Under the pieces are notes generated by a model. That model saw only the letters and a list, made by a program, of their open reading frames with translations, ran no database searches and was not told the DNA's origin. DNA of 25,403 nucleotides from a virus: IMG/VR virus record IMGVR_UViG_3300028844_002793, positions 1 to 25,403 of that record, one strand, 5' to 3'. The translations under genes were made by a program, and so were the position numbers. Shown here piece after piece: positions 1,969 to 25,403 of this stretch (positions are counted from its first letter, which is position 1; each line of letters starts with the position of its first letter).

Positions 1969-2510
1969 TGTATAATCAACTTGTCGATATAGATAAAGAG
2001 GGTAATGCTTTCCTGCAGGACCACTCTATAGCCTTAATGCCTAATATGTGGAAAGTGTATAAGCACAAGCGTATGGGCAGTAAGATGGTTCGTTGGATAG
2101 TTTCAATGTTCGATTACAAATCTCCTTACCGTAGAGTTCCACAGAAAGAGCGTAGAAGAGAAGTTACCTATAACATATTCGGAAAAGCTAATCATGCTTT
2201 ATGTAATGATGTCTTAGTTCTTGGTGCAATTAAAGAGTATGACAGACTTCAATTTGACCCATTAATACATCAGTACAATGCGATGATAGATAAGTCTTAT
2301 GAGCTTACTGAGTTGTATCAAGGCATAGAAGCTGACGAGGATAATATGAGTAAGATTACTAAGATGCAGAAAGATATGAAGGAAGCTGCAGAGTCAAGAG
2401 AAAAGATTAAGGAGTTAATCCTTAAAAACCAAGAAGATGAGATTAAGATACATGGTGGTACTCTTAACGATATGTCTTTCATTGAAGAATCGCTTAGTCG
2501 TAAGGATTGA
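1968..2510 (+). CDS. Packaging-region protein, possible small terminase subunit
   Basis: The gene encodes 180 residues directly upstream of the large terminase and overlaps its TTG start by four bases. The N-terminal half carries a motif around MVRWIVSMFDYKSPYRRVP (about residues 40-58) followed by a basic stretch QKERRR, a combination I associate with conserved proteins next to TerL in Bacteroidota phages. Residues about 105-160 are strongly helical and charged, consistent with a coiled coil. Small terminase subunits are often helical proteins of this size and position, so TerS is the leading guess, but no helix-turn-helix is evident and the assignment remains tentative. Confidence 0.45.
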   Translation: MYNQLVDIDKEGNAFLQDHSIALMPNMWKVYKHKRMGSKMVRWIVSMFDYKSPYRRVPQKERRREVTYNIFGKANHALCNDVLVLGAIKEYDRLQFDPLIHQYNAMIDKSYELTELYQGIEADEDNMSKITKMQKDMKEAAESREKIKELILKNQEDEIKIHGGTLNDMSFIEESLSRKD

Positions 2511-4393: not shown

Positions 4394-4395
4394 TG

Positions 4396-4411
4396 ATTAA
4401 TGCGCATTAAT
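4396..4411. repeat. Perfect 16-bp palindrome over the portal start
   Basis: ATTAATGCGCATTAAT is identical to its reverse complement. It fills the gap between the terminase stop and the portal gene and includes the first two bases of the portal ATG (4410-4412). As DNA it resembles a dimer-binding operator. As RNA it could form a weak six-pair AT stem with a GCGC loop across the start codon, which might modulate portal translation. Confidence 0.6.
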
Positions 4412-6611: not shown

Positions 6612-6624
6612 TTTTTTATATTTG
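6598..6624 (+). promoter_or_regulatory. Candidate Bacteroidota-type promoter before scaffold and capsid genes
   Basis: A TTG at 6598-6600 and an exact -7 match TATATTTG at 6617-6624 (consensus TAnnTTTG) are separated by 16 bases, slightly short of the usual 17-23. The -7 element lies in the 27-base gap between portal and scaffold-like genes. Transcription would begin near 6630, about nine bases before ATG 6639. It would give extra expression of scaffold and major capsid protein, which are needed in high copy. Confidence 0.42.
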
Positions 6625-6638
6625 TAAAAAGATAAGTT

Positions 6639-7670
6639 ATGGAAAGAGAAGAGAATACAGGTGGATTAGCAGAAGAAACTGTTGAAACACAAACACAAGA
6701 AACTGCGGAAACGTCTGCAGATGTTACATTTGACAACAATGCTTTTATGGATGTTCAAGAGTCTAATGATTCTGAAACTGAAACTACCGAAGCTAGTTCT
6801 GAAACTAATACAGAGGAATCTGATGAGGGTTTAGAAATAGAATGGGAACTTCCTGATAATGGAGAAACTTCTACTGAGGAAACAACTGAAACAGAGAACA
6901 CCGAAGCACAAGAAGAAAGCACTACTGAACAACCTGCTAATGTTGATTTTAATTATGAAGCTATTAGCGATAAGATTGGTGTAGAGGTTAAGTCTGAGGA
7001 GGACTTCTTAAATTATATCCAAGAAAAGGATAAGAAGATTGAGGAGTTGCAACAAATGACTAAGGGCAATGTAACAAACGAAAGAATTGAAAACTTAAAG
7101 AGCTATGTCTCTTTAGATGATAAAGAACTATTAAAAGCAGATTTTAAAGCACAAGGCTTTACTGATGCTGAAATAGACGAAGCGGTTGACACTTACGTTG
7201 ATAACGGAACTGTAAAAATCGAAGCGAAGAAAATCAGAAACACTCTTAATCGAACTATGGATGGAGAGCGTAACAAGATGATCGAAGAACAGAAAGCTGG
7301 CGCAAAGCGTGAAGAGCAAGAAGTTCAAAGGCTACGAGACAACATCAAAAAGCACATTAATGAAAGCGAAACAATGTTTGGCTTTAAAATGGCTAAAGAT
7401 GAAGAGTCACTACAGAAAGTTAGAGACAGTCATTACAAGTACACTACTGAGAACTTCTATAAGGAGATTACAGAAAGTGAACAAACAATGTCGGAAGCTG
7501 CTTGGCTATGGAAGAACAGAAATACTTTGCTTAACGCTGCTAAGAATAGAGGAACGCAAACAGGAAAAAAGGCAATACTGGATGTAATCACTGTTCCTGA
7601 CACTTCTACTACCACAAGGATTAGGGAAGAGTCTACAGGTGAGTTTAATCCTAACAAGTTTGCCGGTTAA
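6639..7670 (+). CDS. Acidic scaffold-like head morphogenesis protein
   Basis: The 343-residue product sits between portal and major capsid protein, the usual place of the scaffolding protein that guides procapsid assembly inside the head. Residues 1-105 are extremely acidic and Thr/Glu/Ser-rich with low complexity and few hydrophobics. Residues about 125-260 are charged and helical (IQEKDKKIEELQQMT, later KREEQEVQRLRDNIKKHI), consistent with coiled coil. The C-terminus is basic and ends in EFNPNKFAG. No protease motif is evident. The acidic disordered N-terminus with helical core and basic tail fits scaffolds generally, but sequence identity to a known family was not recognised. Confidence 0.65.
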   Translation: MEREENTGGLAEETVETQTQETAETSADVTFDNNAFMDVQESNDSETETTEASSETNTEESDEGLEIEWELPDNGETSTEETTETENTEAQEESTTEQPANVDFNYEAISDKIGVEVKSEEDFLNYIQEKDKKIEELQQMTKGNVTNERIENLKSYVSLDDKELLKADFKAQGFTDAEIDEAVDTYVDNGTVKIEAKKIRNTLNRTMDGERNKMIEEQKAGAKREEQEVQRLRDNIKKHINESETMFGFKMAKDEESLQKVRDSHYKYTTENFYKEITESEQTMSEAAWLWKNRNTLLNAAKNRGTQTGKKAILDVITVPDTSTTTRIREESTGEFNPNKFAG

Positions 7671-7672
7671 AT

Positions 7673-7694
7673 ATAAATTAAAAATAAATTAAAA
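7673..7694 (+). promoter_or_regulatory. A-rich tandem-repeat leader of the major capsid gene
   Basis: ATAAATTAAAA occurs twice in perfect tandem (7673-7683 and 7684-7694), the last A being the first base of the capsid ATG. There is no Shine-Dalgarno sequence. A-rich unstructured leaders favour translation in Bacteroidota, so this is probably a strong translation-initiation region for the most abundant virion protein. Confidence 0.5.
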
Positions 7695-9079
7695 TGGCTA
7701 AAATTAGTTCAGGTACATATGGAAAAGATACTATTGAAAGTAATTCATTGGTAACTAACCTATTAAAGTACCCAGAGATTGCTAAGACAATCATCAAACA
7801 ATTCCCTCAATACTCTATGACTTATTTCGTAGATGGTACTTCGAGGTTCGCAAAAGAAGACTTAATTGGAGACAATAAGTTTCAATGGTCAATCTTAGGT
7901 CGTCTTAACAGACCATCTACTTTGACAGGAACATTTAGTGGTGGTGGTACACCAGGTATAGGAAATTCTGCTTTCACAGTAGAGTTTGAAGAAAACTACT
8001 TCAATCCTAACGATACTATTCGTTTAAGAGACAAGACGTTATTAATTTTAATTGGAGAGCCAACTCAAACTGCAGGTGGATATACTTTTCAAGCTAAAAT
8101 TCAAACAGCAGATGCTGCTAAATTTGTAGACCCAACTGCATTAGCTGCAGGTAACACAGCAGGTAAAGTTGGTACAGGTTTTACAGAGTCTTCTGAAAGA
8201 GGTTACGAAAATCACGTATACCCAGACTGGTATGTAAATCACTTGTCTATCTGTAGAAAGTCTAAATCTATTTCAGGTTCTGCTTTAACAGATGTTACTT
8301 GGATTGAGAACAACGGTCAAAGGTTATGGTATTTTACTGACCAAGTACACCAAATGGAAGAGTTCTTATACGAGCTTGAAAAGGATTCTTGGTATTCTGA
8401 AACTACAATGGATGTTAACGGTAATTCTACTGTTTTCGATTCTAACGGTAAGCCGGTAGTTAAAGGAGATGGTATCCTTAGACAAATTGATGCATCTAAC
8501 GTAGATACATACAATGGTCTTTTGACAGAAAAAAGAATTACTGATTTCTTAGCTCAGTTACAATTAAACACTGGTTCGAGAGGACAAGAGTGGATAGTTT
8601 ACACAGGTACTGCAGGTAAAGTTGCGTTCCACGAAGCTATGAAGGATTTAGTAATGCCTGGTGGTAACTTGGTATACGATGCAAAAGTAGGAGGAAAACA
8701 AGAGATTGGTGTAGATTTCACATCTTACAATGCTATTGGTTCTAAGATTACTTTAGCTCACAACCCTATTTTCGATGATCCGAATTTACATGGTGGTGAT
8801 ATTGATGCAAGAACAGGTTTCTTAAATGAATCATTCAGAATGGTATTCATGAACATGGGTCAAACTAACGGAGTTTCTAATGTAGAAAGAAAAGTTAAAG
8901 GCGCAGGTGGTGTAAATCGTTCAATGGTAATGAAGTACATCGAGGGTATGGTTAATCCATTTGACCAAAAATCTATGAGTGCTGCTAACTCTCGTGATAG
9001 TTTCACATGTGAAATGTTATCTGAGTCTGGTATCATTGTAAGAAACCCATTATCGTGTGGTCAATTATTAAAAGCATAA
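7694..9079 (+). CDS. Major capsid protein, probable HK97 fold
   Basis: The 461-residue product is assigned as the major capsid subunit from its place after portal and scaffold, its size and its well-folded composition (Gly, Thr and aromatic residues evenly spread, no low complexity). Features include an N-terminal helix-rich arm (residues ~15-45, NLLKYPEIAKTIIKQFPQY), a long helix near 210-235 (DQVHQMEEFLYELEKDSWY), a likely spine helix around 285-300 (EKRITDFLAQLQL), and a C-terminal GIIVRNPLSCGQLL. I see resemblance to capsid proteins of Bacteroidota podoviruses, but the HK97 fold is inferred, not shown by a signature motif. There is no delta-domain or protease site evident. It is preceded by an A-rich tandem-repeat leader suited to high expression. 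Confidence 0.78.
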   Translation: MAKISSGTYGKDTIESNSLVTNLLKYPEIAKTIIKQFPQYSMTYFVDGTSRFAKEDLIGDNKFQWSILGRLNRPSTLTGTFSGGGTPGIGNSAFTVEFEENYFNPNDTIRLRDKTLLILIGEPTQTAGGYTFQAKIQTADAAKFVDPTALAAGNTAGKVGTGFTESSERGYENHVYPDWYVNHLSICRKSKSISGSALTDVTWIENNGQRLWYFTDQVHQMEEFLYELEKDSWYSETTMDVNGNSTVFDSNGKPVVKGDGILRQIDASNVDTYNGLLTEKRITDFLAQLQLNTGSRGQEWIVYTGTAGKVAFHEAMKDLVMPGGNLVYDAKVGGKQEIGVDFTSYNAIGSKITLAHNPIFDDPNLHGGDIDARTGFLNESFRMVFMNMGQTNGVSNVERKVKGAGGVNRSMVMKYIEGMVNPFDQKSMSAANSRDSFTCEMLSESGIIVRNPLSCGQLLKA

Positions 9080-9099
9080 TTAAACTAAAAAGATAAAAC

Positions 9100-9798
9100 A
9101 TGGCGTATAAAGGCGAAGTTAAGGAAAGATTAGAAGGTTTACCTACTACTGGTGTAGGTGAAGTAAGGTTGCGTGATGCACAAAGAGCAGGTACAATTAC
9201 AATTAGAGAATATTGGGATGAAAGCTTAGGGAGGGAGTTATCGCTTCTTTCCAAAGCTGGATCTCCTCGTGTATCTAAGATTACTAAAAACAAGAAATTT
9301 GACTTGTCAGATGTAGAGCAAAGATTGGAATATTTCCACATTAAAAATCATCCTATTTATTCTAAAGGTGGTGATGCAATATTTGAGTGCGTTAACCTAG
9401 ATGAGATGGCGAAAGATAATGTGAGAGATAGAGATTTATTTGCAGATGCGATTGGCATTATTAGAAATCTTGAAGGAAGTGAACTTAGAGATTTTGCGAG
9501 ATTACTGTTAGTTAATAAAAGAATAGCGTTTGGAGATAAGACTTCTGAATACGTTTTAAAGGAACATATGTATGATATTGCAGACATGAATCCTGAACGT
9601 GTTATAGAGGACTTTGAAGATGAAAACAAAGAGTATAAGGTTCTTATTAGAAAAGGATTAGAGCAAAATGTTTTCACTAATACAAATGGTATTTATAAGA
9701 TGGGTGCTCAAATTGTTGGGAACTCGTTTGATGCAGCAGTATTATATTTACAAGAGAACGAAGATTTAATACCTTCATTACGTAAAGACATAGAATAA
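9100..9798 (+). CDS. Conserved head-region protein of unknown function
   Basis: This is a 232-residue soluble, mostly helical protein between the capsid gene and the first connector. The N-terminus (residues 10-35) has a Gly/Arg-rich segment; residues ~70-110 contain FHIKNHPIYSKGG and NLDEMAKDNV; the middle holds helical FADAIGIIRNLEGSELRDFARLL; and the C-terminus ends with GIYKMGAQIVGNSFDAAVLYLQ. No enzyme motif is visible. The stop overlaps the next start (TAATG), so it is translationally coupled to the connector. In this position it might be a minor capsid, cement or head-completion protein. I do not recognise a named family. Confidence 0.65.
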   Translation: MAYKGEVKERLEGLPTTGVGEVRLRDAQRAGTITIREYWDESLGRELSLLSKAGSPRVSKITKNKKFDLSDVEQRLEYFHIKNHPIYSKGGDAIFECVNLDEMAKDNVRDRDLFADAIGIIRNLEGSELRDFARLLLVNKRIAFGDKTSEYVLKEHMYDIADMNPERVIEDFEDENKEYKVLIRKGLEQNVFTNTNGIYKMGAQIVGNSFDAAVLYLQENEDLIPSLRKDIE

Positions 9799-10415
9799 TG
9801 ACAATAGCAGAGATGCATACAAGAATAGATGAGGTGCTTGATAAGAGTAATTCCCCTTGGTTTAACGCTACGGAGAAGGATAACTTTTTGAATGAAGCTC
9901 AGATAGAATTTGTAGACACTCGCTATGGTCAATTTGAGTTCAATGAAAAACGTAAAGAAGAGTTAAATGTTTTAGTTCGTAAGCAAAATTATACAGATGT
10001 AAGTATAATATCTCTAAGTGATATCGAAGACTTTGTGTATGTTATTAGTTTAGGTGCTACAGTCACAATTTGTGGCGTAAGCTATAAACGTAAGGTTAGT
10101 CCTGAGCAACATGACGATGAGTTTGAAAATGATGTAGACCCTTTTAATAAAGCTACTAATAATAATTTAAAGTACTTACAATATAACAATGGTACGAGTA
10201 ACATTATCGAGGTTAAATCTGATAGTGTTCCTAACGAGTTGTATTTGACGTATTTAAAATATCCTATTAAAGTTTCTTTATCAGGTAATATAAATTGTGA
10301 GTTGAACGAGGTTGCTCATAAACAAATAGTTGATATAGCTATTCGTATGATGATGGAACCTTCTGAAGATCAGAATTATCAAATTCAAATAAATGAAATC
10401 AATAATCAAGAATAA
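9798..10415 (+). CDS. Head-tail connector / ring-type protein
   Basis: The 205-residue product opens with a helical region (EMHTRIDEVLDK, then NATEKDNFLNEAQIEFVDTRYG at ~23-44), the layout of small connector proteins that stack on the portal. The second half is beta-rich and ends with ELYLTYLKYPIKV (148-160) and CELNEVAHKQIVDIAIRM (167-184). This combination of a strand with a Y-x-x-x-P motif followed by a helix beginning near a conserved C-E-L is one I associate with adaptor/ring proteins of crAss-like and related Bacteroidota phages. It is coupled by TAATG to the preceding gene. Which ring it forms cannot be told from sequence alone. Confidence 0.6.
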   Translation: MTIAEMHTRIDEVLDKSNSPWFNATEKDNFLNEAQIEFVDTRYGQFEFNEKRKEELNVLVRKQNYTDVSIISLSDIEDFVYVISLGATVTICGVSYKRKVSPEQHDDEFENDVDPFNKATNNNLKYLQYNNGTSNIIEVKSDSVPNELYLTYLKYPIKVSLSGNINCELNEVAHKQIVDIAIRMMMEPSEDQNYQIQINEINNQE

Positions 10416-10424
10416 TTAAATGTT

Positions 10425-10646
10425 ATGGCAACAAAAAAAGAAAAAAAAGAACAATTAAACAGCTTAAAGTTAAACGAACTAAAGGCATTATGTAAGTCTA
10501 GGGGTTACGAGAAATTTAGTAGTATGAGTAAATCTGCAATCGTTGATTTTATTATCAAGATGGAAGATGAAGCTCCAGCTAAAAAAGATGCTCACAAACC
10601 TTTAAGACAATTCAGAAAGCTTAATAAAAGTTTCGGTAGACGTTAA
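10425..10646 (+). CDS. Small Rho-N / SAP-like (HeH) domain protein
   Basis: The 73-residue protein begins with a Lys-rich stretch encoded by A-runs, then has a compact helix-extended-helix pattern LKLNELKALCKSRGYEKFSSMSKSAIVDFIIKM (residues ~15-47; L-x-E-L-K then K-S-x-I-V-D-x-I), resembling Rho N-terminal, SAP and HeH/LEM folds that bind nucleic acid. The C-terminal tail is basic (FRKLNKSFGRR). It lies between a connector gene and a beta-rich structural gene, so it could bind DNA or RNA in the assembling head, or act in regulation. The fold assignment is pattern-based. Confidence 0.55.
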   Translation: MATKKEKKEQLNSLKLNELKALCKSRGYEKFSSMSKSAIVDFIIKMEDEAPAKKDAHKPLRQFRKLNKSFGRR

Positions 10647-10678
10647 GTTATTAAACAATAAAATTAAAAATTAAAATT
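10647..10678 (+). promoter_or_regulatory. A-rich leader of the putative decoration gene
   Basis: The 32 bases before the 10679 ATG consist almost wholly of A and T with repeated AAATTAAA-type units, resembling the leader before the capsid gene. No Shine-Dalgarno sequence is present. It is likely an efficient initiation region for an abundant virion protein. Confidence 0.4.
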
Positions 10679-11389
10679 ATGAAAGTAGGTAGAGATTATT
10701 TTTCACTTGTAAACAATGCTGCAGCAGGTGCTTGGGCTGCAGATGCGGACGGAAACGTTGCGTTAACTCCAGGCTTTTTAGTTCCTTTGGTTGATTTACA
10801 ATCATCAGTATATACTGCTCCGGTAGTAGGAGTTGCAGGTTATAACACTGTTACTCTTGCTAGTACTTATGTAGCAGGAGATGAGGTAACACTAACAGTA
10901 GTTAGTAATGACACTTCAAGACAATTATGGAGAAAGACATACAGACATACTGCACAAGCAGGAGCTGTAACTGTAACTGATATTGCTACTGCGTTAACTG
11001 CGTTAATTGCAAAAGATGGAGAGGCTAACGAAACTCCTTATACAGCAACTAACGTTGCAGGTGTAATTACAATTACTCAAAAGAATGACGATAAGAACTC
11101 GTTACAGGTAGAGGTTTATACAACTTCTGTAGCAGGAACTATTGTTGCTGTTGCAACTGCAACAGTTATTTCTGAGGGTTATCCTGATGATTTAGTTGAT
11201 AGAGGTATAGATGCAGCAGATATTACTTCTGCAACATTTGATACAGTTCGTATCGTATACACTCCTTCAGTAGCTCAACCATTTATTAATAGTGTTGGTT
11301 CTAATTCTGTTGAAATCTTTTGGTTTGGAACAGAAGGAGATGGTGCAACAACTGGTGGTTTTGCATTAGATGCTTTAATTAACGCATAA
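10679..11389 (+). CDS. Beta-rich virion protein, possible capsid decoration or head-fibre base
   Basis: The 236-residue product is rich in Ala, Thr, Val and Gly with few charges, typical of exposed beta-structured virion proteins. An N-terminal segment (1-45) resembles an anchoring domain. Residues ~55-165 form a module with the order VTLTVVSND, YRHTAQAGAVTVTDIATAL, PYTATNVAGVITIT and VEVYTTSVAGTI, and a related module occurs in the protein encoded at 12670-13869. The C-terminal 165-236 has VRIVYTP and EIFWFGTEGDG. A strong candidate terminator follows, and its leader looks like that of the capsid gene, suggesting high expression in the head transcript. Tail-tube or decoration roles are both possible. 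Confidence 0.55.
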   Translation: MKVGRDYFSLVNNAAAGAWAADADGNVALTPGFLVPLVDLQSSVYTAPVVGVAGYNTVTLASTYVAGDEVTLTVVSNDTSRQLWRKTYRHTAQAGAVTVTDIATALTALIAKDGEANETPYTATNVAGVITITQKNDDKNSLQVEVYTTSVAGTIVAVATATVISEGYPDDLVDRGIDAADITSATFDTVRIVYTPSVAQPFINSVGSNSVEIFWFGTEGDGATTGGFALDALINA

Positions 11390-11420
11390 GATAGTTAATT
11401 AAAAAATTAGTTGTAATTTT

Positions 11421-11450
11421 ATGGGGAGGTAGCAACCGTTACTTCCCCAT
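11421..11450 (+). terminator. Candidate intrinsic terminator after the head genes
   Basis: A 12-pair stem, ATGGGGAGGTAG (11421-11432) with TTACTTCCCCAT (11439-11450) including two G-U pairs, closes a six-base loop CAACCG and is followed by the T-rich TATTATATTT. It lies 31 bases after the stop of the beta-rich head gene and 14 bases before the next start. It would separate a highly expressed head transcript from neck and tail genes, or attenuate read-through. Confidence 0.7.
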
Positions 11451-11464
11451 TATTATATTTAGGT

Positions 11465-12166
11465 ATGGCTACATTAGACGAACACGCATATAATATTAGA
11501 AATATCATTAGAGCCAATCAAGGTAATTCAGATGATGAGAGGTTAAATATATCTCAAATAAAGTTTTGGATAAGTGCTTATAGAGCTAAAGGTGTTTTCG
11601 ATATAACTCAATACGGAAAACAAATAGATCCTCAGTTAGTTCAAGATATGGGGGTGTTAAAACTAAAGACTGTTGATAAAGCAGATAGTGAATGTCCTAA
11701 AGTGGAATGGGGCTGTACAGTAAAGTACGTTGATATTCCAAAGATAGTAGACCTACCTCATAATAGAGCGTTGGTCTTTGTTGGTTTAATAGACAAACAA
11801 ACTCCTATCATTATTGATAATGCTGATGTTCATATCTTCAAGAGAGCAACTAAGTTTGGTAATCTATTTAATCGATGCTACTTTATAAACAATAGGTTGT
11901 ACATTGTAACCAAGCAGGGAGATGAGTCAGTTAAGTATATTAACATAAGAGCTGTATTTGAAGACCCTACTGATGTAACTGTTTATACAGAAGATAATCC
12001 TAAAGGAAGATGTTTTGATGAAGCTAACGATGAGTACCCTATGCCAATGAGATTATACGAATATGTATTAACCTCTATTTTAAGAAACGAATTTCAAGTA
12101 AGTGCTCAGACGATTAACGATGAGTTAAATAACGGTAGACAGGATAATGAAAAGCTTAGACCTTAA
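11465..12166 (+). CDS. Neck / connector (ring-type) protein
   Basis: The 233-residue product starts with helices (MATLDEHAYNIRNIIRANQG, then DDERLNISQIKFWISAYRA at ~23-41), has a central beta-rich region containing a Cys-rich patch SECPKVEWGC (~74-83) and KYVDIPKIVDLP (~87-98), and ends in helices around MRLYEYVLTSILRNEF. The pattern of an N-terminal helical pair with I-x-x-W/L-x-x-x-R-A followed by a strand with I-P-x-x-x-x-L-P is one I recognise from ring proteins near the muzzle gene of crAss-like phages. It overlaps the next gene by 20 bases. The fold is inferred. Confidence 0.55.
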   Translation: MATLDEHAYNIRNIIRANQGNSDDERLNISQIKFWISAYRAKGVFDITQYGKQIDPQLVQDMGVLKLKTVDKADSECPKVEWGCTVKYVDIPKIVDLPHNRALVFVGLIDKQTPIIIDNADVHIFKRATKFGNLFNRCYFINNRLYIVTKQGDESVKYINIRAVFEDPTDVTVYTEDNPKGRCFDEANDEYPMPMRLYEYVLTSILRNEFQVSAQTINDELNNGRQDNEKLRP

Positions 12167-12668
12167 AGGTAGATATACATTACTTGGTGTTTACAATGAG
12201 TGTAGTGAACTATTAGATAGTAGGCTTAATAAAGTCAACTACGGTAAAGGTAAAAACATTAAGCACGTAAACTATAAAGTCTTTAAGACTATTGTTATGG
12301 CTTATATGAGAATATTATTATCGAGTACTGTTAATGGAAAGATAAATTCATTGTACAATAGGTTTGGAGATATATATGCAGTAAAAGCAAAAGCTATTAG
12401 GTATAACCCTATGAGATGGGTGTTTACTAAAGAGAATGGAAAGGTTGTTAGAAAGCAAGAGAAAGTAGATTTGAATAAGACTAATGGGTATGTATATTTT
12501 ATCTTTTGGAATAATCCTAAAATATATAGACATTACAAATTGAAACTATCAAGGACTTGGATTAAAGAACTTTTGAATAATGTATTTAGAGGTATGGACG
12601 TATTAGATGTTAGCTTAAACAAGTACGGAAACAACGCTAGTCCAACTTACATACATAAAATTAAATAA
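12147..12668 (+). CDS. Conserved unknown protein of the neck region
   Basis: The 173-residue, strongly basic protein has an N-terminal helix-turn region (LLGVYNECSELLDSRLNKV), a Lys/Tyr-rich middle, and a second half with aromatic residues (NGYVYFIFWNNPKIYRHYKLKLSRTWIKELL). Similar basic proteins with a YxYFxxWxx motif occur between ring and adaptor genes in Bacteroidota podoviruses, but I know of no assigned function. No signal peptide or membrane helix is seen. It starts within the end of the preceding gene and is followed immediately by the next connector gene, so it is probably coexpressed with neck proteins. It might contact DNA or act as an assembly factor. Confidence 0.55.
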   Translation: MKSLDLKGRYTLLGVYNECSELLDSRLNKVNYGKGKNIKHVNYKVFKTIVMAYMRILLSSTVNGKINSLYNRFGDIYAVKAKAIRYNPMRWVFTKENGKVVRKQEKVDLNKTNGYVYFIFWNNPKIYRHYKLKLSRTWIKELLNNVFRGMDVLDVSLNKYGNNASPTYIHKIK

Positions 12669-12669
12669 T

Positions 12670-13869
12670 ATGTCATTTATAAATAGAATATCGCTATATG
12701 AGATTATAGGTAATTTCGCTGGTAATACAGGAATAAACAATGTTAATGATATGATAGATGATTTAGCTCGATGGGCTAGTGAAGCTGAAAATCATATTGG
12801 TTCTAAACATTCTTACGAAAGACATGAGTGTGAGATAGATGTAGAGAACTACAAAGCTTGTTTACCTAAAAACTTTGCGTACTTAAATGCTTTAAATATA
12901 GGTGGAGAAATATTAGACAAAACTAACAGAGAGTTTAGAATGTTTGATAAAGCTCCTAAGAATGGGATTGTTGAGAAGCAAGAACAGAAGTACAACAACA
13001 ATCAATTAGTAATAGAGTCTCCTGGTGTAGCGTTAACAATGCAAATGAAGTTGTGTGGTTTGTTTGCTGAAAGCGATATGGTTACAATTAATATTCAAGC
13101 AAATGATTGTGGCTCTTTAAATTCTAATAGCTTTAACTATACTGTTCAGGCAGGAGATACAACACAAGATATTCTAATAGCTTTAGTAACAAGTATTAAT
13201 GCTATTAATAATTTACCTTATACTGCAAGTAATAACGCAGACACTTTGTTCATAACGGGAAGAACTCCTGATGTGATATTTACAATAACCACTTATACTG
13301 ATAGTATTCAAGGAACAATAGAACTAACCACATTAGTTCCAAGAGTACCGCCAAAGAAAGCGGAGTCTAGTCCTAAAGGAAGTCAATCTTCCCCAATACA
13401 GACAACATCTCCTAATTTAGCTAACAGAAGTGCTGCTGAATTAAATACAGGTCTTACAGCTAGTAATAGAGATGGTTTTGCTAATGGTGGGTATGGTGGT
13501 TATAATTATCCTTTTGCAAGTTCTAGTAGTAAGTTCACTATAGAGAATGGTTTTATCTATTTTAATCAAATAGAGAAAGGGAAAGTTGGTATATCTTATA
13601 TGGGTATAATGATAGATGAGAATGGGTGGCCGATGATTTCAGAAGACCACGCTGATGCTGTTTCAGCATACTTAATCTATATGTGGACTAAGAAGCGTTT
13701 TATAATGGGTAAGATAGGTGTAGGTAATTATCAATTACTTAAACAAGAATGGGAATGGAAATGTGGTCAAACTAGAGGTAATGATGAGCTGCCTGACCAA
13801 GCTGAAATGAGATACTTAGCTAATCAATGGATGCAATTAATGCCTTTACCTAATAAATCATTGTTTTAA
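12670..13869 (+). CDS. Neck adaptor protein with an inserted beta module
   Basis: The 399-residue protein has three parts. Residues 1-125 form a connector-like N-terminus (LYEIIGNFAGNTG, helix DLARWASEAENHIG, then CLPKNFAYLNALNI). Residues ~135-222 carry a beta module (VTINIQAND, FNYTVQAGDTTQDILIALV, PYTASNNADTLFIT, TTYTDSIQGTIELT) related to that of the 10679-11389 product. A Pro/Ser/Asn linker (225-285) leads to a C-terminal part with KFTIENGFIYFNQIEKGKV and YMGIMIDENGWPMI (288-323), a D-E-x-G-x-P motif typical of crAss-like neck proteins. The module looks inserted into an otherwise continuous adaptor. The stop overlaps the next start (TAATG). Confidence 0.6.
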   Translation: MSFINRISLYEIIGNFAGNTGINNVNDMIDDLARWASEAENHIGSKHSYERHECEIDVENYKACLPKNFAYLNALNIGGEILDKTNREFRMFDKAPKNGIVEKQEQKYNNNQLVIESPGVALTMQMKLCGLFAESDMVTINIQANDCGSLNSNSFNYTVQAGDTTQDILIALVTSINAINNLPYTASNNADTLFITGRTPDVIFTITTYTDSIQGTIELTTLVPRVPPKKAESSPKGSQSSPIQTTSPNLANRSAAELNTGLTASNRDGFANGGYGGYNYPFASSSSKFTIENGFIYFNQIEKGKVGISYMGIMIDENGWPMISEDHADAVSAYLIYMWTKKRFIMGKIGVGNYQLLKQEWEWKCGQTRGNDELPDQAEMRYLANQWMQLMPLPNKSLF

Positions 13870-16800
13870 TGGGAACAACAAGAACTATAAATACGTTTAA
13901 TGAGGGTATGGCGCAAGACGTTGATAAATTAAATCAACCTAATGCTGCATATCGTTATAGTAAGAATGGTAAGCTTATCTTTAATGAAGATGGAACTTAC
14001 TCTTGGGAGAATGAAGAAGGTACTCAATTAAGTTTCGTAATCAATCCAAATAGCACAATCGTTGGAGGGGGAGAAGCGTTTACTCCTTTAGGGTACGCAT
14101 CTGGTCCGAACTATATAATACTGTTCTCTAAGAATACTACAAGCGGAAATAGTGAGATAGGAATGATTACTCTTGATGAGAATGGAGCGGGTAAGTATAA
14201 AACCTTATTTAATGATGCGAATGATCCTAATGGAGACTTATTTAATTTTGATGTAGAGATTGAAGCAACACTTCTTCCGGAAGTAGATGAAATTATTAGA
14301 GTGTATTGGCACGATGGAGTTCTTACCAACAGTAATAGACCTGGTGCTTTTACTTTTTCTTATGATGGTGTTGGACCAAAGAATGATGTAGACTCTTATA
14401 GTCCTGTAACATTGTCTGTTCATAATGCTAAAATGCAAGCTGAACATCAAATGGGTATTATCAAATATCAGAAAAATATTAACGGTAATTTAGTTTCCGG
14501 TGTTTATCAACATACTTATAGGTTAGGTACTGTAGATGGCTATAGGACTCCTTGGATTCCACTAACAAGACCTTTGTTCTTAACAGTAGATGCGGTAAGC
14601 AGTTCTAATTGGCATGATTATGAAATGGAAGGAACTGGTCTTGAAACTTCTAAAGGTTTTAGGTTTGAAGTAAAGGGTATAGATGAGAGGTTTCAAATAT
14701 TAGAAGTTGCTTATGCTTACATAACTTCTAGCGAAGCAATTACTTCTTCGGGTATATTTCTTTCAGCAGATATTACTGGAAGCACAATGACTGTAGACCA
14801 TATAACTAATAATGGTGCTATACCTATATTGGATTCTTCTGCTTTTGCTCAAAGGTATTCTAATATAGAAAGGGTTAAGACTTCTAATATTAAGGACAAT
14901 ACGATGTACTTCGGAAATATTAAAGAAGCCACATTAGATTTTGATATAGAGCCTGTGTTAAACAATCTATCTGTCAAGCCTATATTTGAGTCTATGTTGG
15001 ATGATGAAAAGACTCCTAAAGAGTTTATTAAACATGATGAAACGACTACTCCATCCCAAGATTATGATTTGCCTTTAACTCATCAAGCTCCAAGAACAGG
15101 AACTACTACTATTCAAATGCACGACCAAGCAGGAGGGGAAGAGGTTTATACAATAGATAATGATTACGTTAACTATAAGGGAACACAAGTTGCTCATTTA
15201 AAGACTGGTTATCGTAGAGGGGAAACATATCGTTTTGGTATTGTGTTTTTCGATAAATTAGGTCAGCCTACGTTCACGTATCATTTAGCTGACATTAAGT
15301 TCCCGGAATTATACTCTGGACTTTACGAAGCTACAAGAGTTAGAGAAGATGGTTCGTTAGATTACCCTGCTAAACAAACTATAAGCGCAGCTTATATAAC
15401 AAATAATTTTGGTGCTTTATCAACTAGTAATGTTGTTCTTGATGGAACAGACCCTGATTTAGATGATACTTGTCATATCAGAATAATGGGAATAAGATTT
15501 GATGGGATTGACTTAACAACTATTAGAGAGGATATTGTTGGGTATGAGATAGTTAGAGCTGAATTAGATAATACTATTTTATATCAAGGCTTAGCTATGC
15601 CTTGTTTAATACAGAACTCAGCTACAAGACTTCAAGTTGGTCCTACTCAAAAATGGAAAGGTTGGGATGGAGATACCTTAGTTGCTCCTACTCCTAGCGC
15701 AGATGATATAGGTTATTTCTCATACAATATGTGGGAAGACAATAACACTACAAATACACAGCCTAATAATGCAGGAAAAACAGTAGATCAATATAGGTTA
15801 AGACCTTATTATACAGCTATGCTATATCCGGAACTTGCTTTTGCTATTAGAGATACAGCTAATGGACCAAGCATATTTCCCAACGATAGATTAAAAATTG
15901 TCGGAACATATTTTGCGGAAGTAAACCCTAGCGATACTACACAAGGAACAGGACAATTTTACACATTACACGCAAATTTTGATACAACAGTAAATGATGG
16001 TAAGGTAGACCAGCATACTATACAAAAATTATATTATACTGCTCAATATAATGATGCTGATGGTGGAAATTCAATATTTGCTAGTTACGGTTCTAAGGCG
16101 CAGCCTGTATATAAGCATAGACACTCGGGTTATTATAATATAGCAGAAGGTGTTCTTGGAGATACCACTACTGATTTAATTCAAGACGTTAGTTTTAGAT
16201 TTCATGTTGCAAATGCTTACCTTGAAAACCCTTGGTTCTCAGACAATAAAGAATACTACGGTATGGCTAGTCATAATGTTATTTACTATAAGACAGATGG
16301 TTATTTTGGAGGAAACAATCCTGCTGATTTAGCTACTACTCCTGCTGTAGGCTTTTATATTGGCTCTGGAAATGCTTTGTCAAGAGGTCTTTCAAATGAC
16401 AGTGGCGCTACCTATAATCAAATAGACTCTAGCCATAACTCTTTTAATATTGTAAATTATGTAAGAGAAAATAGCTCTCCTTATGGGGGTCCTTCTAATA
16501 CATCTGTGCAAGGAACAGTATATAAAGGAACAGGTCATTTTCAGCCAGTAAATAATTCTGAATTTACTTGTCCTGATATAATTAACGGAATGAAAGTTTG
16601 GGGTGGAGATACGTATATTACATTTATAGATATTGCTAGAATAATTCCTAACTTCACCAAGAAGAATGACCAAGAAGAGCAAAGCATAAATACAACTCCT
16701 TATCCTGTTGGTCAAGGGGTAGTGTTACCTATTGAAAGTTCAATTAATATGTCTTTACGTCAGAGAGCATCAGAACAAAATCCAAGTTACGCTAACAATG

Positions 16801-18131
16801 GATTTAGAAGTCAAGGTGCTTATGATGGAGATTCTGATTGGACTGGAGAGATTAGTTATCCTGATGGGATATATTGGTTTGATAGTAGCAATAGATTGAC
16901 AGAAGAATGGAATTATCAGAGTGCTTTATTGTTTGATGAGGCAACAAACTTCTATGCTCAAAAACCATTTAATGCAAATGTAACAACAAGGTTTCCGGTA
17001 AGATGGAGATATAGTGATCAGAAGTTTTACGGAGATGATGTAGATGCCTTTAGAACATTTTTAGTTAATGACTTTAGGGATATGGATGGTCGTTATGGAG
17101 AGATAATGGCGAGTTCATATTTGTTTGACCAAATATACGTTCTACAAGAAGAAGCTTTGTCTAGGCTTCGCGCTTATGAAAGAGCGTTAGTTCAATCTTC
17201 TAACTTAGGAAGTTTAGCAACGGGTACAGGAGAGCGTTTGGCAGGGCAAGATTACATATCTACAGTTTACGGTACTCAGCATCAAATGAGTTTAGTTAAT
17301 AGTGGAAAAGCTATTTATTGGATTGATAGTAAAAAACGTAAGTTCTGTAGGTTTGCGCAAAATGGTGTAGAGTTGTTGAGCGATATTAGAGGTATGCATC
17401 AATTCTTTGATAAGATGTTAGTTCAATATGATAATGCTGATAGCCCTATTAATCAGAAAGGTATTGCATCAGGATATGATTATACTAATAATACTGTTTA
17501 TGTTTCATTTACAGGAGCAGGAAAATATGATACTGGGCTAGAAACTCCTCCGGATGAATTTCCTATACTTAGAGTGCATCCTCCTGAAGATGAATACACT
17601 ACAATAAGTTTTAATGAGAACTTAAATGCCTTTATTAGTTTCCATGATTTTATTCCTAATATGTATATGTCGCATAAAGGGTTCTTATTAAGTGTAGATA
17701 CTTACTTACCTGCAAATACAAGGTTAGAGAAAATATTTAGGAGAGGTTCTTTTTATGTTCACGAGAAAGGTAATAGAGGTTTTTATTATGTTAATTCTTT
17801 TGATTCAGAAGTAGATGTTATAACAAAAGAGAATATGATGTACCATAAGACTTTTGATAACATTAGAATGAATATAAATGATGCTTCTGCAAGTATATTT
17901 ACAGAGCTTATAATGACTACTGAAAATCAAACAGAAACACTTGATATTCAAAATGATGATAGAGCTATTTTGAAAGAAAACATTTTTAGATTACCTTTAC
18001 GTGGTGTAGAACAAGCAGGTAGAATGAGAGGTAAACATATTACTAATAAGTTCATTTTTGATAATGAAAATGATGTATTAGTTAGGTTTACGAGTTTAGA
18101 AACTTTATTTAGATTATCTAATAGATTGTAA
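13869..18131 (+). CDS. Large tail protein, muzzle / stabilisation-protein type
   Basis: At 1,420 residues this is the largest intact gene here. The N-terminus (residues ~5-50) has NEGMAQDVDKLNQPNAAYRY followed by NGKLIF and WENEEGTQL, a signature resembling the start of the 'stabilisation'/muzzle proteins that cap the short tail of crAss-like phages. The rest is mixed beta-rich sequence with many aromatic and Asn/Gly residues and no membrane segments, as expected for a tail nozzle. No hydrolase motif is evident. It follows the neck proteins and precedes internal-protein genes, exactly where that protein lies. The C-terminal ~150 residues (HEKGNRGFYYVNSF onward) look like a compact closing domain. 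A receptor-binding function is possible but not shown. Confidence 0.68.
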   Translation: MGTTRTINTFNEGMAQDVDKLNQPNAAYRYSKNGKLIFNEDGTYSWENEEGTQLSFVINPNSTIVGGGEAFTPLGYASGPNYIILFSKNTTSGNSEIGMITLDENGAGKYKTLFNDANDPNGDLFNFDVEIEATLLPEVDEIIRVYWHDGVLTNSNRPGAFTFSYDGVGPKNDVDSYSPVTLSVHNAKMQAEHQMGIIKYQKNINGNLVSGVYQHTYRLGTVDGYRTPWIPLTRPLFLTVDAVSSSNWHDYEMEGTGLETSKGFRFEVKGIDERFQILEVAYAYITSSEAITSSGIFLSADITGSTMTVDHITNNGAIPILDSSAFAQRYSNIERVKTSNIKDNTMYFGNIKEATLDFDIEPVLNNLSVKPIFESMLDDEKTPKEFIKHDETTTPSQDYDLPLTHQAPRTGTTTIQMHDQAGGEEVYTIDNDYVNYKGTQVAHLKTGYRRGETYRFGIVFFDKLGQPTFTYHLADIKFPELYSGLYEATRVREDGSLDYPAKQTISAAYITNNFGALSTSNVVLDGTDPDLDDTCHIRIMGIRFDGIDLTTIREDIVGYEIVRAELDNTILYQGLAMPCLIQNSATRLQVGPTQKWKGWDGDTLVAPTPSADDIGYFSYNMWEDNNTTNTQPNNAGKTVDQYRLRPYYTAMLYPELAFAIRDTANGPSIFPNDRLKIVGTYFAEVNPSDTTQGTGQFYTLHANFDTTVNDGKVDQHTIQKLYYTAQYNDADGGNSIFASYGSKAQPVYKHRHSGYYNIAEGVLGDTTTDLIQDVSFRFHVANAYLENPWFSDNKEYYGMASHNVIYYKTDGYFGGNNPADLATTPAVGFYIGSGNALSRGLSNDSGATYNQIDSSHNSFNIVNYVRENSSPYGGPSNTSVQGTVYKGTGHFQPVNNSEFTCPDIINGMKVWGGDTYITFIDIARIIPNFTKKNDQEEQSINTTPYPVGQGVVLPIESSINMSLRQRASEQNPSYANNGFRSQGAYDGDSDWTGEISYPDGIYWFDSSNRLTEEWNYQSALLFDEATNFYAQKPFNANVTTRFPVRWRYSDQKFYGDDVDAFRTFLVNDFRDMDGRYGEIMASSYLFDQIYVLQEEALSRLRAYERALVQSSNLGSLATGTGERLAGQDYISTVYGTQHQMSLVNSGKAIYWIDSKKRKFCRFAQNGVELLSDIRGMHQFFDKMLVQYDNADSPINQKGIASGYDYTNNTVYVSFTGAGKYDTGLETPPDEFPILRVHPPEDEYTTISFNENLNAFISFHDFIPNMYMSHKGFLLSVDTYLPANTRLEKIFRRGSFYVHEKGNRGFYYVNSFDSEVDVITKENMMYHKTFDNIRMNINDASASIFTELIMTTENQTETLDIQNDDRAILKENIFRLPLRGVEQAGRMRGKHITNKFIFDNENDVLVRFTSLETLFRLSNRL

Positions 18132-20491: not shown

Positions 20492-22096
20492 ATGCCAAAT
20501 TTTGCAGTATATCAAGGTTTAATGTCTCGTAACGATTGGGATAGAGAAAGACAAGACAAAGCTATGAATTTAGCTGCTTTAGAAAAGCATTCGGCTTTAG
20601 AGCAGGCTAAAACACAACGAGAGATTGCGCTTCAAGAAGAGATTGGAGGTTATTTGCAATTAGTTAATAGTTTAGATTACGAACCAGAAGACGTTGAAAG
20701 GTTAAAAGGTTTAGAAAAAGAAGAGCGTAAAAACATTATTAAAGGTATTGGAAAGCATGAAGGTAATTTAAGTTCATACATTTCTTCTGGTGGAGCTTTA
20801 GCTTTAAAGAATTATCAAAATAATATTATAAATTCAAAAGAAGCTCAAAACGCTAAAGAAACTAAAGAGTCTATGACTGCATACATTAAAGACAGGCAAG
20901 ATGATAAGTTTGTTAATGGAGGGATTGTTAGTGTTCCTGTTGTCGATAAGAATGGCAAAAAAAAATGGGATGATAAATTCATGACAATGAATGAACAAAT
21001 TGCTTTATTTAAAGCTGGTGAAATAGATAAAATTAATTACTTTGGCTCAGAACCAAAAGTTGAAGTCAATATGATGGACTTTAAGAAAGCTATGAAAGAC
21101 GATTTAGATCCTTATGGAGACAACAGGGTTACTCAATCAGACGTTATGACAATGGCTTTAAGTAAGAACGCTAGTCAAGCGCAAGCAGAAGCGATTACTA
21201 AGAAGATATCTAAAGTATGGGCTGATAGCGGAGAGGGTTGGAATTGGAAAGCTGGAGATGTTGCAGGATATAATATGGATGCGGCTAGGTTAAATCAAAA
21301 CGCTGAAAGAATAAATAACGAACAAAGACGTTGGGAGTATGAGCAAACTCAATCAGGAAGCGCTAATGTTGAAGAGTATTATCTTAACGAAATAGAGGGT
21401 AATTTAAAAGAATTGCAGAGAGATAATCAAGGGAATGTTGTTGGTTCGTATGATTCTCCTGAATTTAAGTTTGATGATGGTCATATAGGTGGTGTAGTTT
21501 ATACTACTCCTTTGACTTCGCAAGGTCAAAAAATAACAGAAGAAAATGGATTCGGAATAACTGACGGGTCTGCCGAAGGTAGTTTTGTAAATATGTTTGA
21601 AAAAGATGATGGAGAAACGGGAGAAGATATTGACATAGATAGGTTTAATCAATATAAGACTAGAACAAATAGTACTCTTTATATTAGCCCAAGGACAGGT
21701 AAGACTATAGAGCTTCAAAGCACTAATTACGGTGTTACTTCAATGGATAATAAAATGACTCATTTGGTTTCTCCTACAAATCAAAAAACTGACGTTATGG
21801 AGCAAAAGGTAATGATGCCTCTTTCTGATTATGAAAAACTAAACGAACAGTATAAATTAAATGATGATTTTGACGGTGGAAATATGAAGGAATACAGTGT
21901 TGCAGGTTGGAATGGTAGCATGGTTGAGTTAACTTTATTTCAAAAACCAGCTACCGACAGAAGAACATTTATGCAGGCAAATAAGCAGTATTACGATTCT
22001 CAACCTAAAGAGGGGGCTGCTTCAACAACAGCAAATCAAGTAGAAGCAAATAAGTTTATGCAGTATAATATTATAAGGTCTAAAACTAATAAATAA
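20492..22096 (+). CDS. Putative cargo / internal virion protein
   Basis: The 534-residue product has a charged helical N-terminal third (RNDWDRERQDKAMNLAALEKH, QAKTQREIALQEEIG, RLKGLEKEERKNIIKGI), a mixed central region with VVDKNGKKKWDDKFMTMNEQ (~160-180), another helical section rich in Asn/Gln near 260-300, and a beta-leaning C-terminal third (STLYISPRTGKTIELQST). No enzyme motif or membrane segment is evident. It lies between an ejection-type protein and the giant terminal protein and is separated from the latter by two bases. Proteins here in crAss-like phages are packaged in the tail as cargo; that role is inferred only from position and composition. Confidence 0.55.
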   Translation: MPNFAVYQGLMSRNDWDRERQDKAMNLAALEKHSALEQAKTQREIALQEEIGGYLQLVNSLDYEPEDVERLKGLEKEERKNIIKGIGKHEGNLSSYISSGGALALKNYQNNIINSKEAQNAKETKESMTAYIKDRQDDKFVNGGIVSVPVVDKNGKKKWDDKFMTMNEQIALFKAGEIDKINYFGSEPKVEVNMMDFKKAMKDDLDPYGDNRVTQSDVMTMALSKNASQAQAEAITKKISKVWADSGEGWNWKAGDVAGYNMDAARLNQNAERINNEQRRWEYEQTQSGSANVEEYYLNEIEGNLKELQRDNQGNVVGSYDSPEFKFDDGHIGGVVYTTPLTSQGQKITEENGFGITDGSAEGSFVNMFEKDDGETGEDIDIDRFNQYKTRTNSTLYISPRTGKTIELQSTNYGVTSMDNKMTHLVSPTNQKTDVMEQKVMMPLSDYEKLNEQYKLNDDFDGGNMKEYSVAGWNGSMVELTLFQKPATDRRTFMQANKQYYDSQPKEGAASTTANQVEANKFMQYNIIRSKTNK

Positions 22097-22098
22097 GA

Positions 22099-22785
22099 AT
22101 GAGAGAACTTGACATAACTAAGAAAGGGGATAATCAAAAAAAGGGAAAAGGAGATGGTAGCTTATTGATGCGACCAAAACATATGACCTACGAAGATAGT
22201 CCTCTTGAAAAAGAAAGCAATCCAAATCTCGTTAAGTCTGCTGCTAATCTAAGAAATTTAGATGATGAAAGAATATTAAGGTATTACAATGATAGAGATA
22301 ATCCTGAATATTTTGATGTAGAGCAAAGCATTATAGATGGCGGTATGACCATTCAAGATTTTGCTAATGAATTTAAGAAAGATTTAGATAGGCGTGTACC
22401 TCTTGGTATTAAGCAATCTAACCCAATGGAATTAAACTTCAATGAAGAAATTCCTTCTATGTATGATTTTAAAAATAGTGCGTTTGATGATTTCACAACT
22501 TCTTTTAGTAATGGTTTAAAGCGTGTTCAAAAAGGTATCAAGATGTTACCTACTATGGCTACCGCTATAACTGCTGATGATGCTTGGGCTGATGAATGGG
22601 CCGAAGAAGTGGCTGATTGGTACGAAGCTTCTTCGCATAGGGTTAGTGATTTAGCAGGACAATCGTTTTTTGATACAGGTTCGTTACGTTCTTTTGCAGG
22701 TGGAATGGGAAGTGGTTTAGCTTCCTTCAATGCAAGGTTTGTTAGTTGGGCTACCTGTTGCTATGATAGAGAAACTTGCTTTTGA
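22099..22785 (+). CDS. N-terminal piece of a giant internal virion protein (frame broken)
   Basis: The frame gives 228 residues, but only about the first 210 look native. The start is polar and basic (ELDITKKGDNQKKGKG), followed by DDERILRYYNDRDNPEYFDV (~55-74), GGMTIQDFANEFKKDLDRRV, and a helix-rich region YDFKNSAFDDFTTSFSNGL (~122-140) with Trp-rich DAWADEWAEEVADWY. After Phe210 the frame gives NARFVSWATCCYDRETCF, with three Cys unlike its neighbours, and then stops. The frame starting at 22721-22730 (+1) continues the natural sequence. This is therefore best read as the N-terminus of a protein continuing at 22730. The break could be an assembly indel, a real mutation or frameshifting; without it the protein would exceed 1,100 residues. 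Confidence 0.6.
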   Translation: MRELDITKKGDNQKKGKGDGSLLMRPKHMTYEDSPLEKESNPNLVKSAANLRNLDDERILRYYNDRDNPEYFDVEQSIIDGGMTIQDFANEFKKDLDRRVPLGIKQSNPMELNFNEEIPSMYDFKNSAFDDFTTSFSNGLKRVQKGIKMLPTMATAITADDAWADEWAEEVADWYEASSHRVSDLAGQSFFDTGSLRSFAGGMGSGLASFNARFVSWATCCYDRETCF

Positions 22786-24139
22786 AAAACTTTTAGCTCA
22801 ATCAATGGCTACTAATTTAAGCGGTGGTTTCACTAAAGAGTTTCTTGCAAACTCTATTAAAGAAATATCTAAGAATGGAGTAACTAAAGAAACTTTAAAA
22901 ACTTTTATTAAAAAAGGAACAAAAGATTTAGGATTAAAACAATTTGCTAAAAGTAAAGCTATAGGAGTTGGAAAAGGCTTTGTTAGAGGTGCTTTGCCGG
23001 AAGGTGTTTCAGAGGGTATACAGTCTTTTATAGAGAATGTTGGAGAGATAGCTTACGATAACTTAAATAAGCACGATAAAACTTTTTATGGTACGGACAT
23101 AAAGAGTAAAGATTTTTGGAAAGGTGTAGGAGAGGAAGCTTTCTATGGTGCTATTATAGGTGGAGGTATGTCGGCTTCAACAAACCTACCGGGTAAAGTA
23201 AAACATGAAAGTGCTTATCATTATGTTAGGTCGTCTGTTGCTAGTGGAGATATGTCTAAAATAGATCAGATAAAAAACTTTAGTCAAAAAGCGGAAGCCT
23301 CTGGAGATATAACTGCAAAAGAAAGAGTTAATTTTGAGAGGACTATTGATGAGATGGTTGAACTTGAAAAAGATATTTGGCATAATGTTTCTGATTCTAA
23401 GGCTAGATATCAGAGTTACAATATGAACAAAACCAATAAAGATTTAGATGCTGTAATGTCTTCTGAAGTTTATGGTAAAATGAAAACATCAAACCCAGAG
23501 TCTACTCAGGAATTAACTGAGAAAATTAAGTCTGTAAGAGAAAAAATATCAAATGTAATTAGTTCTATATCTAAGACTAATTCTGTTCAAACGCTTTCTG
23601 ATGATTCAAGTTCTATTATAAATGAAATCGATGCTATAAATAAAGATTTGCCTGATAGTCAAAAGATAGATAAGATGGCTATACAAGAAGCTTTCAGAGA
23701 AGCTAGTAGCTTAAAGAATAAAGAGTTAAAAATAAAGAAAAAATTATTTAAAAAGCAACAACATTCAAAAGCTAAAGGAAAGAAAGTTAAAAACCCTATT
23801 AAGGAGGAAGATTTAAAAGAGGAAGAGAAAGCGTTTCAAAACTTACTGAGAAATAGTGTTGGTTTAAAGGAGCTTGTCTATTATGACAATAATGGCTCTA
23901 AAGTTACTAATGCTGCTATAGAGGGTATTAGAATTGTAGAAGATGTTGTAAGCACGTACAATGATGGTAAACGAACCGATAAACAGAAAAAATCTATAGA
24001 ACTTTTAGCTAAGACTCAATACGGAATGACTTTATCTGAATTAGAAGAACTCGTTGTAAATAAAGATGAGCTTTTAGAAAAGTATGAAAAAGAGGAGTTA
24101 GAGTCTGGAGACGAAATAGTTAAAGAACAAGAGGTTTAA
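22730..24139 (+). CDS. Second piece of the giant internal virion protein
   Basis: This piece has 469 residues if read from its first ATG, though it is probably not an independent gene, since its first residues complete a hydrophobic stretch begun in the upstream piece (GSGLASF then MQGLLVGLPVAMIEKLAF). It continues with Lys-rich helices, GVGKGFVRGALPEGVSEGIQSFIENVG (~79-105) and FYGAIIGGGMSASTN (~138-152), an arrangement of amphipathic and Gly-rich helices common near the N-terminus of very large ejection proteins and virion RNA polymerases. The remainder is charged, helical and low in aromatics. It ends at TAA 24137-24139, where the +1 frame continues in the same composition. The next gene has no start nearby, supporting a second break. 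Confidence 0.6.
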   Translation: MQGLLVGLPVAMIEKLAFEKLLAQSMATNLSGGFTKEFLANSIKEISKNGVTKETLKTFIKKGTKDLGLKQFAKSKAIGVGKGFVRGALPEGVSEGIQSFIENVGEIAYDNLNKHDKTFYGTDIKSKDFWKGVGEEAFYGAIIGGGMSASTNLPGKVKHESAYHYVRSSVASGDMSKIDQIKNFSQKAEASGDITAKERVNFERTIDEMVELEKDIWHNVSDSKARYQSYNMNKTNKDLDAVMSSEVYGKMKTSNPESTQELTEKIKSVREKISNVISSISKTNSVQTLSDDSSSIINEIDAINKDLPDSQKIDKMAIQEAFREASSLKNKELKIKKKLFKKQQHSKAKGKKVKNPIKEEDLKEEEKAFQNLLRNSVGLKELVYYDNNGSKVTNAAIEGIRIVEDVVSTYNDGKRTDKQKKSIELLAKTQYGMTLSELEELVVNKDELLEKYEKEELESGDEIVKEQEV

Positions 24140-25403
24140 AGAGGATTATGATGTAGACGTAGATAAACCTAAAGCTAAAAAGACAACAGTTAAGGGTAAG
24201 CCTAAGACAGTTGTTTCGGATGCAGTAAAACCATTTGTTAAATTAGCAGAAGATGAGGTAACTGATAAGGGCTTTGATATGATTCAGAAGAAGATAGATG
24301 ATAGTGATTTATCTCCCGAAGATAAGATTACTGCTACTGATGAACTTATTAAGCTAAGAGAAGATAAAGTTTCTAAGTCTATTGATGCTAAAGACAGCAC
24401 TACCGAAAGCACCAAAGAACCCGAAGACGTTGTTAGTGGAGAAAGAGTAGTAGAGGATAAGGAATCTAGCAAGGAAGACCCTTTGACTAAAAAATTAAAA
24501 GCTGATGAAATTAAAGAAATTTCTTCTATAGAGAAAGGTACTGATATGTTTGGAGCTGTAGAATATGCATCATCTAGCGGAATTTTCTCTGATAATTATG
24601 AAGATACTTTGTCTCAGGTCAAAAAAAAATATTCAGATAAAATAGCAAAATCGAAAGAAGAGATCACAAAAAAAGATATTAAAGAATTTAAAGATCTGCT
24701 TAATGCAGAAGAAAAAGTTGATTTAATAGAAGGTGGATATGCATTAGAAGTTCGTCCATACAGTGCTCTTGAAAACAGTAGAGAAGATGCTAAATCTGTT
24801 TTGTTTAAATTATTAGAATATTTTTCCGAAAATAAAAATGCTAAGAAATATTTTGAAGGCGGTATACTTAGGAATATAGAAGGCTCGTCTGTTTTTAGCT
24901 CAATTAATATATACAAAGATATATTAAAAGGTAGTGGTTATTATAATTCGGAATCTATAATAGATGGAGGAATATACACATCGTTGGAGGAGAAAATAAT
25001 AAGAGGTGTAATAAATGATAATAAAACGATTGATGAAATTTTATCTGCTTTAGAATCAACAACACAACAAACTAGTGAGGCTGAAGCTACGCCTACTTCT
25101 ATTGAAGTGAATAATAAAGGCGAGGTAAAAAAGAATTACGAAGTTGAAAATGCGACTACTCCTAAAGCAGAAGATACACGTACACAAGAACAAATAGACC
25201 AAGATGAATATGATGCGATAGCAGCATTACATGGTAAAGACCAAAGGGTTTCTCCAATAGAAAATACTAACGATGCTTTAGCTAGTCAAACGATTTCATC
25301 TAACCCTTACTTGTATAGTCAGATAAAGGCTTGGGCTAAGAAAGTGTTTCCTAATCTATCTATCGAAGAGGTAAATGATTTAGGAAAGAAGTATGGTGCT
25401 GAT
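24138..25403 (+). CDS. Third piece of the giant protein, cut by the window edge
   Basis: The frame is open for 422 codons to the last base with no stop, so the gene is partial. There is no ATG, GTG or TTG for the first 47 codons (first ATG 24279), although coding-like charged sequence (KEDYDVDVDKPKAKKT) begins immediately, so an independent start is unlikely. The region is Lys/Glu/Asp-rich with disordered segments (DSTTESTKEPEDVVSG) and short folded parts (YALEVRPYSALENSREDAK, NPYLYSQIKAWAKKVFPNLS near the right edge). No catalytic motif is seen here. In crAss-like and N4-like phages a protein of this size and place can be a virion RNA polymerase or an ejection protein; the window ends before any diagnostic motif. 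Confidence 0.55.

Follow-up and report, generated by a model that had tools for sequence, protein, structure and literature searches.

Two frame changes in one giant gene of a crAss-like phage record look like local damage

Three described systems bear on a giant phage gene that is interrupted by changes of reading frame. The +1 frameshift of prfB, as described in PMC12421855, combines a CTTT slippery sequence, an AGGGGG three nucleotides upstream and a weak stop context, TGAC. In the zeta group of crAss-like phages, disrupted RNA polymerase genes have been reported, for which an unknown mechanism of expression was proposed (PMC7886860). The cargo proteins gp45, gp46, gp47, gp49 and gp50 of phi-crAss001 are described in PMC10172136 as large proteins that the virion carries and presumably ejects into the host. 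Here we describe a gene that probably belongs with the last of these, whose reading frame changes twice and which a first-pass annotation had likened to the first.

A giant gene next to the structural block of a crAss-like phage

The window analyzed here is a complete IMG/VR record of 25,403 bases, within which PHROG profiles identify the structural block of a crAss-like phage: the terminase large subunit, the portal, the major capsid protein and a stabilisation-type structural protein. Membership of the Crassvirales goes by a related terminase, portal, major capsid protein and tail stabilisation protein, and all four have a PHROG match; the terminase, portal and stabilisation-type protein also match named Crassvirales in tblastn, at 20-28% identity among the matches listed. 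Judged by these matches, the source of the window is a crAss-like phage. The other end of the record encodes, on the minus strand at 667-1077, a homologue of staphylococcal nuclease (Pfam PF00565, 3e-10) with what appears by eye to be a signal peptide. The features on which the analysis rests are as follows.

2507-4393, plus strand: terminase large subunit, used for finding relatives and as the control for the background rate of frame breaks
20492-22096, plus strand: intact gene directly upstream of the giant gene, a synteny anchor with a homologue at the same position in relatives
22099-22785, plus strand: first piece (N) of the broken gene, 228 aa, frame 1; homology to relatives ends at ...GMGSGLAS (22725)
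22719-22738, plus strand: first break, the junction of a deletion as judged against relatives, with 13 nt between the conserved ends at 22725 and 22739
22730-24139, plus strand: second piece (M), in frame 2 and 469 aa long, which stops at GTT TAA and corresponds by homology to residues 251-722 of the giant protein of relative G021
24118-24139, plus strand: second break, where frame 2 gives way to frame 3 within a linker that is acidic and of low complexity
24120-25403, plus strand: third piece (C), 428 codons, frame 3, cut off by the end of the record; a stretch conserved among relatives (NPYLYSQIKAWAKKVFPNLSIEEVNDLGKKYGA) is matched at its end

A terminase profile scan of viral contigs gave 496 relatives, of which the best 80 (L006-L085) were retained; the closest of these best 80 of 496 has 68% terminase identity. 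The search with the M piece (query 22730-24136) covered 44 of the 80 records, the 36 others being mostly short, and gave matches in seven, each time inside one unbroken frame (963, 3171, 2799, 3605, 3477, 4347 and 4482 aa, of which the frames of 963 and 3477 aa are cut by the contig). The N piece matched eight of the 44, namely the same seven and G013. A scan of all viral contigs with the M region added one more relative, L103, whose open frame extends for 1854 aa up to the edge of its locus; a further locus, L104, looks like a different protein and was dropped. The family of records with this giant gene thus comprises G020, G021, G025, G030, G031, G037, G038, G013 and the L103 contig. The upstream gene and the order of the structural block are shared with the relatives, the upstream neighbor being read in six of the nine.

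The broken gene begins at 22099, and its counterpart in these environmental crAss-like phages, by both sequence and position, is a single giant gene of 2799-4482 aa. The N, M and C pieces align in order with one open frame of the relatives, and conserved stretches are common to both. On the single L094 protein the alignment is collinear (N 57-217 with 50-211, M 4-466 with 251-722, C 78-427 with 697-1019), the placement of C being loose in the linker, where it overlaps that of M. Within this family, the relatives have one open frame where the window gene has two frame changes. The gene can also be naturally divided: G037 encodes it as a single gene (3726-16766, 4347 aa) whereas G021 has two adjoining genes (13116-16487; 3171 and 1124 aa), and in G025 and G031 the giant protein is likewise encoded in two adjoining genes.

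In the same region cr118_1 has a gene of 4946 aa, and phi14:2 has gp077-gp079, annotated as structural by mass spectrometry. From this synteny we infer that the product of the giant gene is probably a virion cargo protein, grouping it with the phi-crAss001 proteins, which are virion-borne by the finding of PMC10172136. That the gene matters for infection, as the first-pass annotation assumed, is plausible given the virion proteins in syntenic position. Searches of Pfam, NCBIfam and PDB gave no name for the giant protein, and those run with the giant proteins of two relatives turned up no sequence connection to a solved structure. With PHROGs, L094 residues 2893-3040 weakly matched a DprA-like family, outside the part present in the window. 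A Pfam Ntox15 match in the C piece (24120-25403) stays below the curated cut-off (16.8 against 22.5 bits) and is probably due to chance. The M and C pieces had no tblastn match among annotated phages; single-protein scans with the M piece, the stabilisation-type protein and the upstream gene found no close relatives; a scan of bacterial and archaeal genomes found no relative, and screening viral sequences once more with the N region yielded no new record.

Two frame changes of different kinds

Using a codon model trained on 15 intact genes from this record, whose 6559 codons include no internal stop, we found a coding signal that runs without a gap from 22099 to 25403, passing from frame 1 to frame 2 to frame 3. 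The second of these changes was mapped to 24118-24137, with most of the weight on 24133-24137. As the first-pass annotation had stated, GTT TAA at 24134-24139 terminates frame 2, and frame 3 runs without a stop from 24120 to the edge of the window (428 codons, the last stop lying at 24117-24119) with no start for 47 codons past the stop, the first ATG, GTG or TTG being the ATG at 24279. The longest off-frame open run within the 15 intact genes is 101 codons, compared with 472 and 428 at the broken gene, so that chance is no explanation. An alternative reading of the stop at 24139 is ruled out by four further frame-2 stops within 40 bases (24149, 24164, 24170 and 24176). The second frame change is thus confirmed as genuine sequence.

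The first break had been described as a +1 frame break in the same direction; this holds for the net frame only. The last conserved residue in frame 1 lies at 22725 and the first in frame 2 at 22739, leaving about four residues in the window, where eight measured relatives have 47, 63, 79, 79, 62, 84, 51 and 47. A ninth, G020, has the same sequence here as G021. The segment absent from the window is thus kept in all nine relatives (47-84 residues), or in seven lineages when near-identical pairs are counted once, which shows a deletion together with a frame change rather than a slip by one base. Since the two closest relatives both have 47 residues, about 43 codons or more have been lost, and by this comparison roughly 130 nt or more are deleted at the first break. 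No copy of the lost stretch was found elsewhere in the window, which rules out its transposition to another part of it. The true junction lies upstream of the TTT TGA (22780-22785) that ends the frame-1 reading, by about 40 nt or more, so that this TTT TGA is incidental, and the last 19 residues of the N piece are out of frame.

At the second break no segment is visibly missing: in the alignments, by eye, the window has a longer linker than G021 and G025 do. The two breaks are therefore different kinds of event and not one recurring shift; the first being a deletion, reads shorter by one base at both sites, proposed earlier as the sign of an assembly error, could not account for it. As to whether relatives keep the same break, a check proposed earlier, all eight relatives (six lineages) read straight through the second site.

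The likeness to the CTT TGA of prfB does not extend beyond a net +1 change at an NTT-stop. The second site has GTTT at 24134-24137 and no CTTT, lacks a Shine-Dalgarno-like AGGGGG three nucleotides upstream, and carries a strong stop context, TAAA, in place of the weak TGAC described in PMC12421855; every prfB hallmark that was tested is absent there. The shared motif means little, as NTTTRA occurs 154 times on the plus strand of the window. The RNA that follows the second site folds slightly better than shuffled sequences (z -1.69, with 13 of 200 shuffles as good), which we count as weak, and that at the first site folds no better than shuffles (z 0.30).

A defective record or a mutated gene

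We consider the two changes best read as private lesions, most likely arising from a local defect of the record, a misjoin or a poorly supported consensus, a reading to which we give about an even chance. In the first lesion about 43 or more codons are lost and the frame changes; the second is a frame change in a flexible acidic linker from which no segment is visibly missing. The two lie 2.7 and 1.3 kb before the record end, and the defect would reside in these final 2.7 kb of the assembled record and not in the virus, which itself would carry the giant gene whole. The background rate of such breaks is very low: the terminase genes of the 80 relatives (147,624 bases) contain no same-strand break, although it should be noted that these are the best 80 of 496 and as controls are biased toward intact genes. 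Against this background, two breaks within 1.4 kb call for a local cause. The coding signal past each break is undiminished, indicating that the lesions are either recent or not real.

Faults at contig ends also occur in sister records, which supports the reading as a record defect. In L030, the terminase reading turns onto the opposite strand over the last ~180 bases, an inverted chimera, and in L113 (G013) a stop stands two codons before the contig end, within the last 9 bases, in the giant gene, where the relatives have none. It should be noted that the lesions of the window are not at the very end of the record, and that a deletion of more than 100 nt is atypical of read error; both points speak against a defect. 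A simple homopolymer error is not supported as the cause, as longer A runs in the same gene (nine at 24621, and seven each at 24668 and 22136) stay in frame. The stabilisation-type protein (13869-18131) shows at 17511-17595 an in-frame shortfall of ~90 residues compared with near relatives; the stretch varies in length among relatives, and we do not regard it as another lesion.

A possible but less probable reading is that the mutations are real and recent, the record representing a variant, defective or in decay, in which a segment of the giant cargo gene is gone and a second frame change has been added. The very low background rate fits such a gene-specific mutation as well: two breaks fall in one gene while the 15 others used for training are all intact, no same-strand break is seen in the 147,624 bases of the best 80 of 496 terminases, and the first lesion is a deletion and not a read-type error. 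However, the gene is whole in all relatives examined and the neighboring virion genes are clean, so that a dead genome should not persist, and the coding signal does not decay past the breaks. It is this evident coding constraint, together with the clean virion genes nearby, that leads us to favor the record defect over mutation. Of the causes named by the first-pass annotation, assembly errors and a decaying gene therefore remain the likely ones.

It is unlikely that the gene is truly split, into N (22099-22785), M from the ATG at 22730 and a third protein from the ATG at 24279. A new-frame ATG does stand at the first junction, within four codons of the resumption of homology, and the two genes of 3171 and 1124 aa in G021 that correspond to one protein of 4347 aa in G037 provide a precedent within the group. 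However, the 20 bases before the ATG at 22730 contain only four A, compared with a mean of 9.6 (sd 2.9), fewer than at all 16 gene starts of the window; N and M would overlap by 56 bases; a strong frame-3 coding signal sets in right after 24139, well ahead of the ATG at 24279; and no relative is divided in this part of the giant gene. More broadly, we regard as improbable a giant virion cargo protein made in pieces, whether by splitting or by recoding at 24120-24139 after the loss of a short segment.

The zeta-group RNA polymerase genes (PMC7886860), likewise giant crAss-like genes with frame changes, differ from the case as described there: the window gene has only two breaks, no intron was found, and the relatives of its own group are unbroken, for which reasons we do not assign it to that case. 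A gene interrupted by an intron or intein can be dismissed, since sequence is missing and not inserted at the first break, and an Rfam search found nothing in 21500-25403 at E 0.1, nor in the window when the gathering score was applied. Very unlikely is a full protein produced by prfB-type programmed +1 shifting at one or both sites: although both net changes are +1, both upstream frames end in NTT T(A/G)A, the RNA past the second site has its slight folding advantage, and the zeta-group genes offer published, unexplained frameshifts (PMC7886860), homology at the first site is already in the new frame ~40 nt before TTT TGA with a segment missing, its RNA folds no better than shuffles, and the second site has neither the prfB features nor a broken counterpart in any of the eight relatives. 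The recurring programmed shift at N-TT-T(A/G)A that had been proposed is thus unsupported by relatives and by site features, the first change lying near 22719-22738, off the motif.

Implications for giant genes of crAss-like phages

Compared with its relatives, the gene looks as though it has suffered local damage, in the record or in one genome, and does not seem to reveal a new way of reading genes. The value of the case is as a caution: what looked like a one-base slip at the first site was revealed by alignment with relatives as a deletion, and the relatives share neither break. If recoding were nevertheless at work, the making of a very large virion protein in an abundant order of phages would hinge on shifts of frame, and the gene would form a second case beside the published broken polymerase genes of the zeta group, in an environmental group of these phages.
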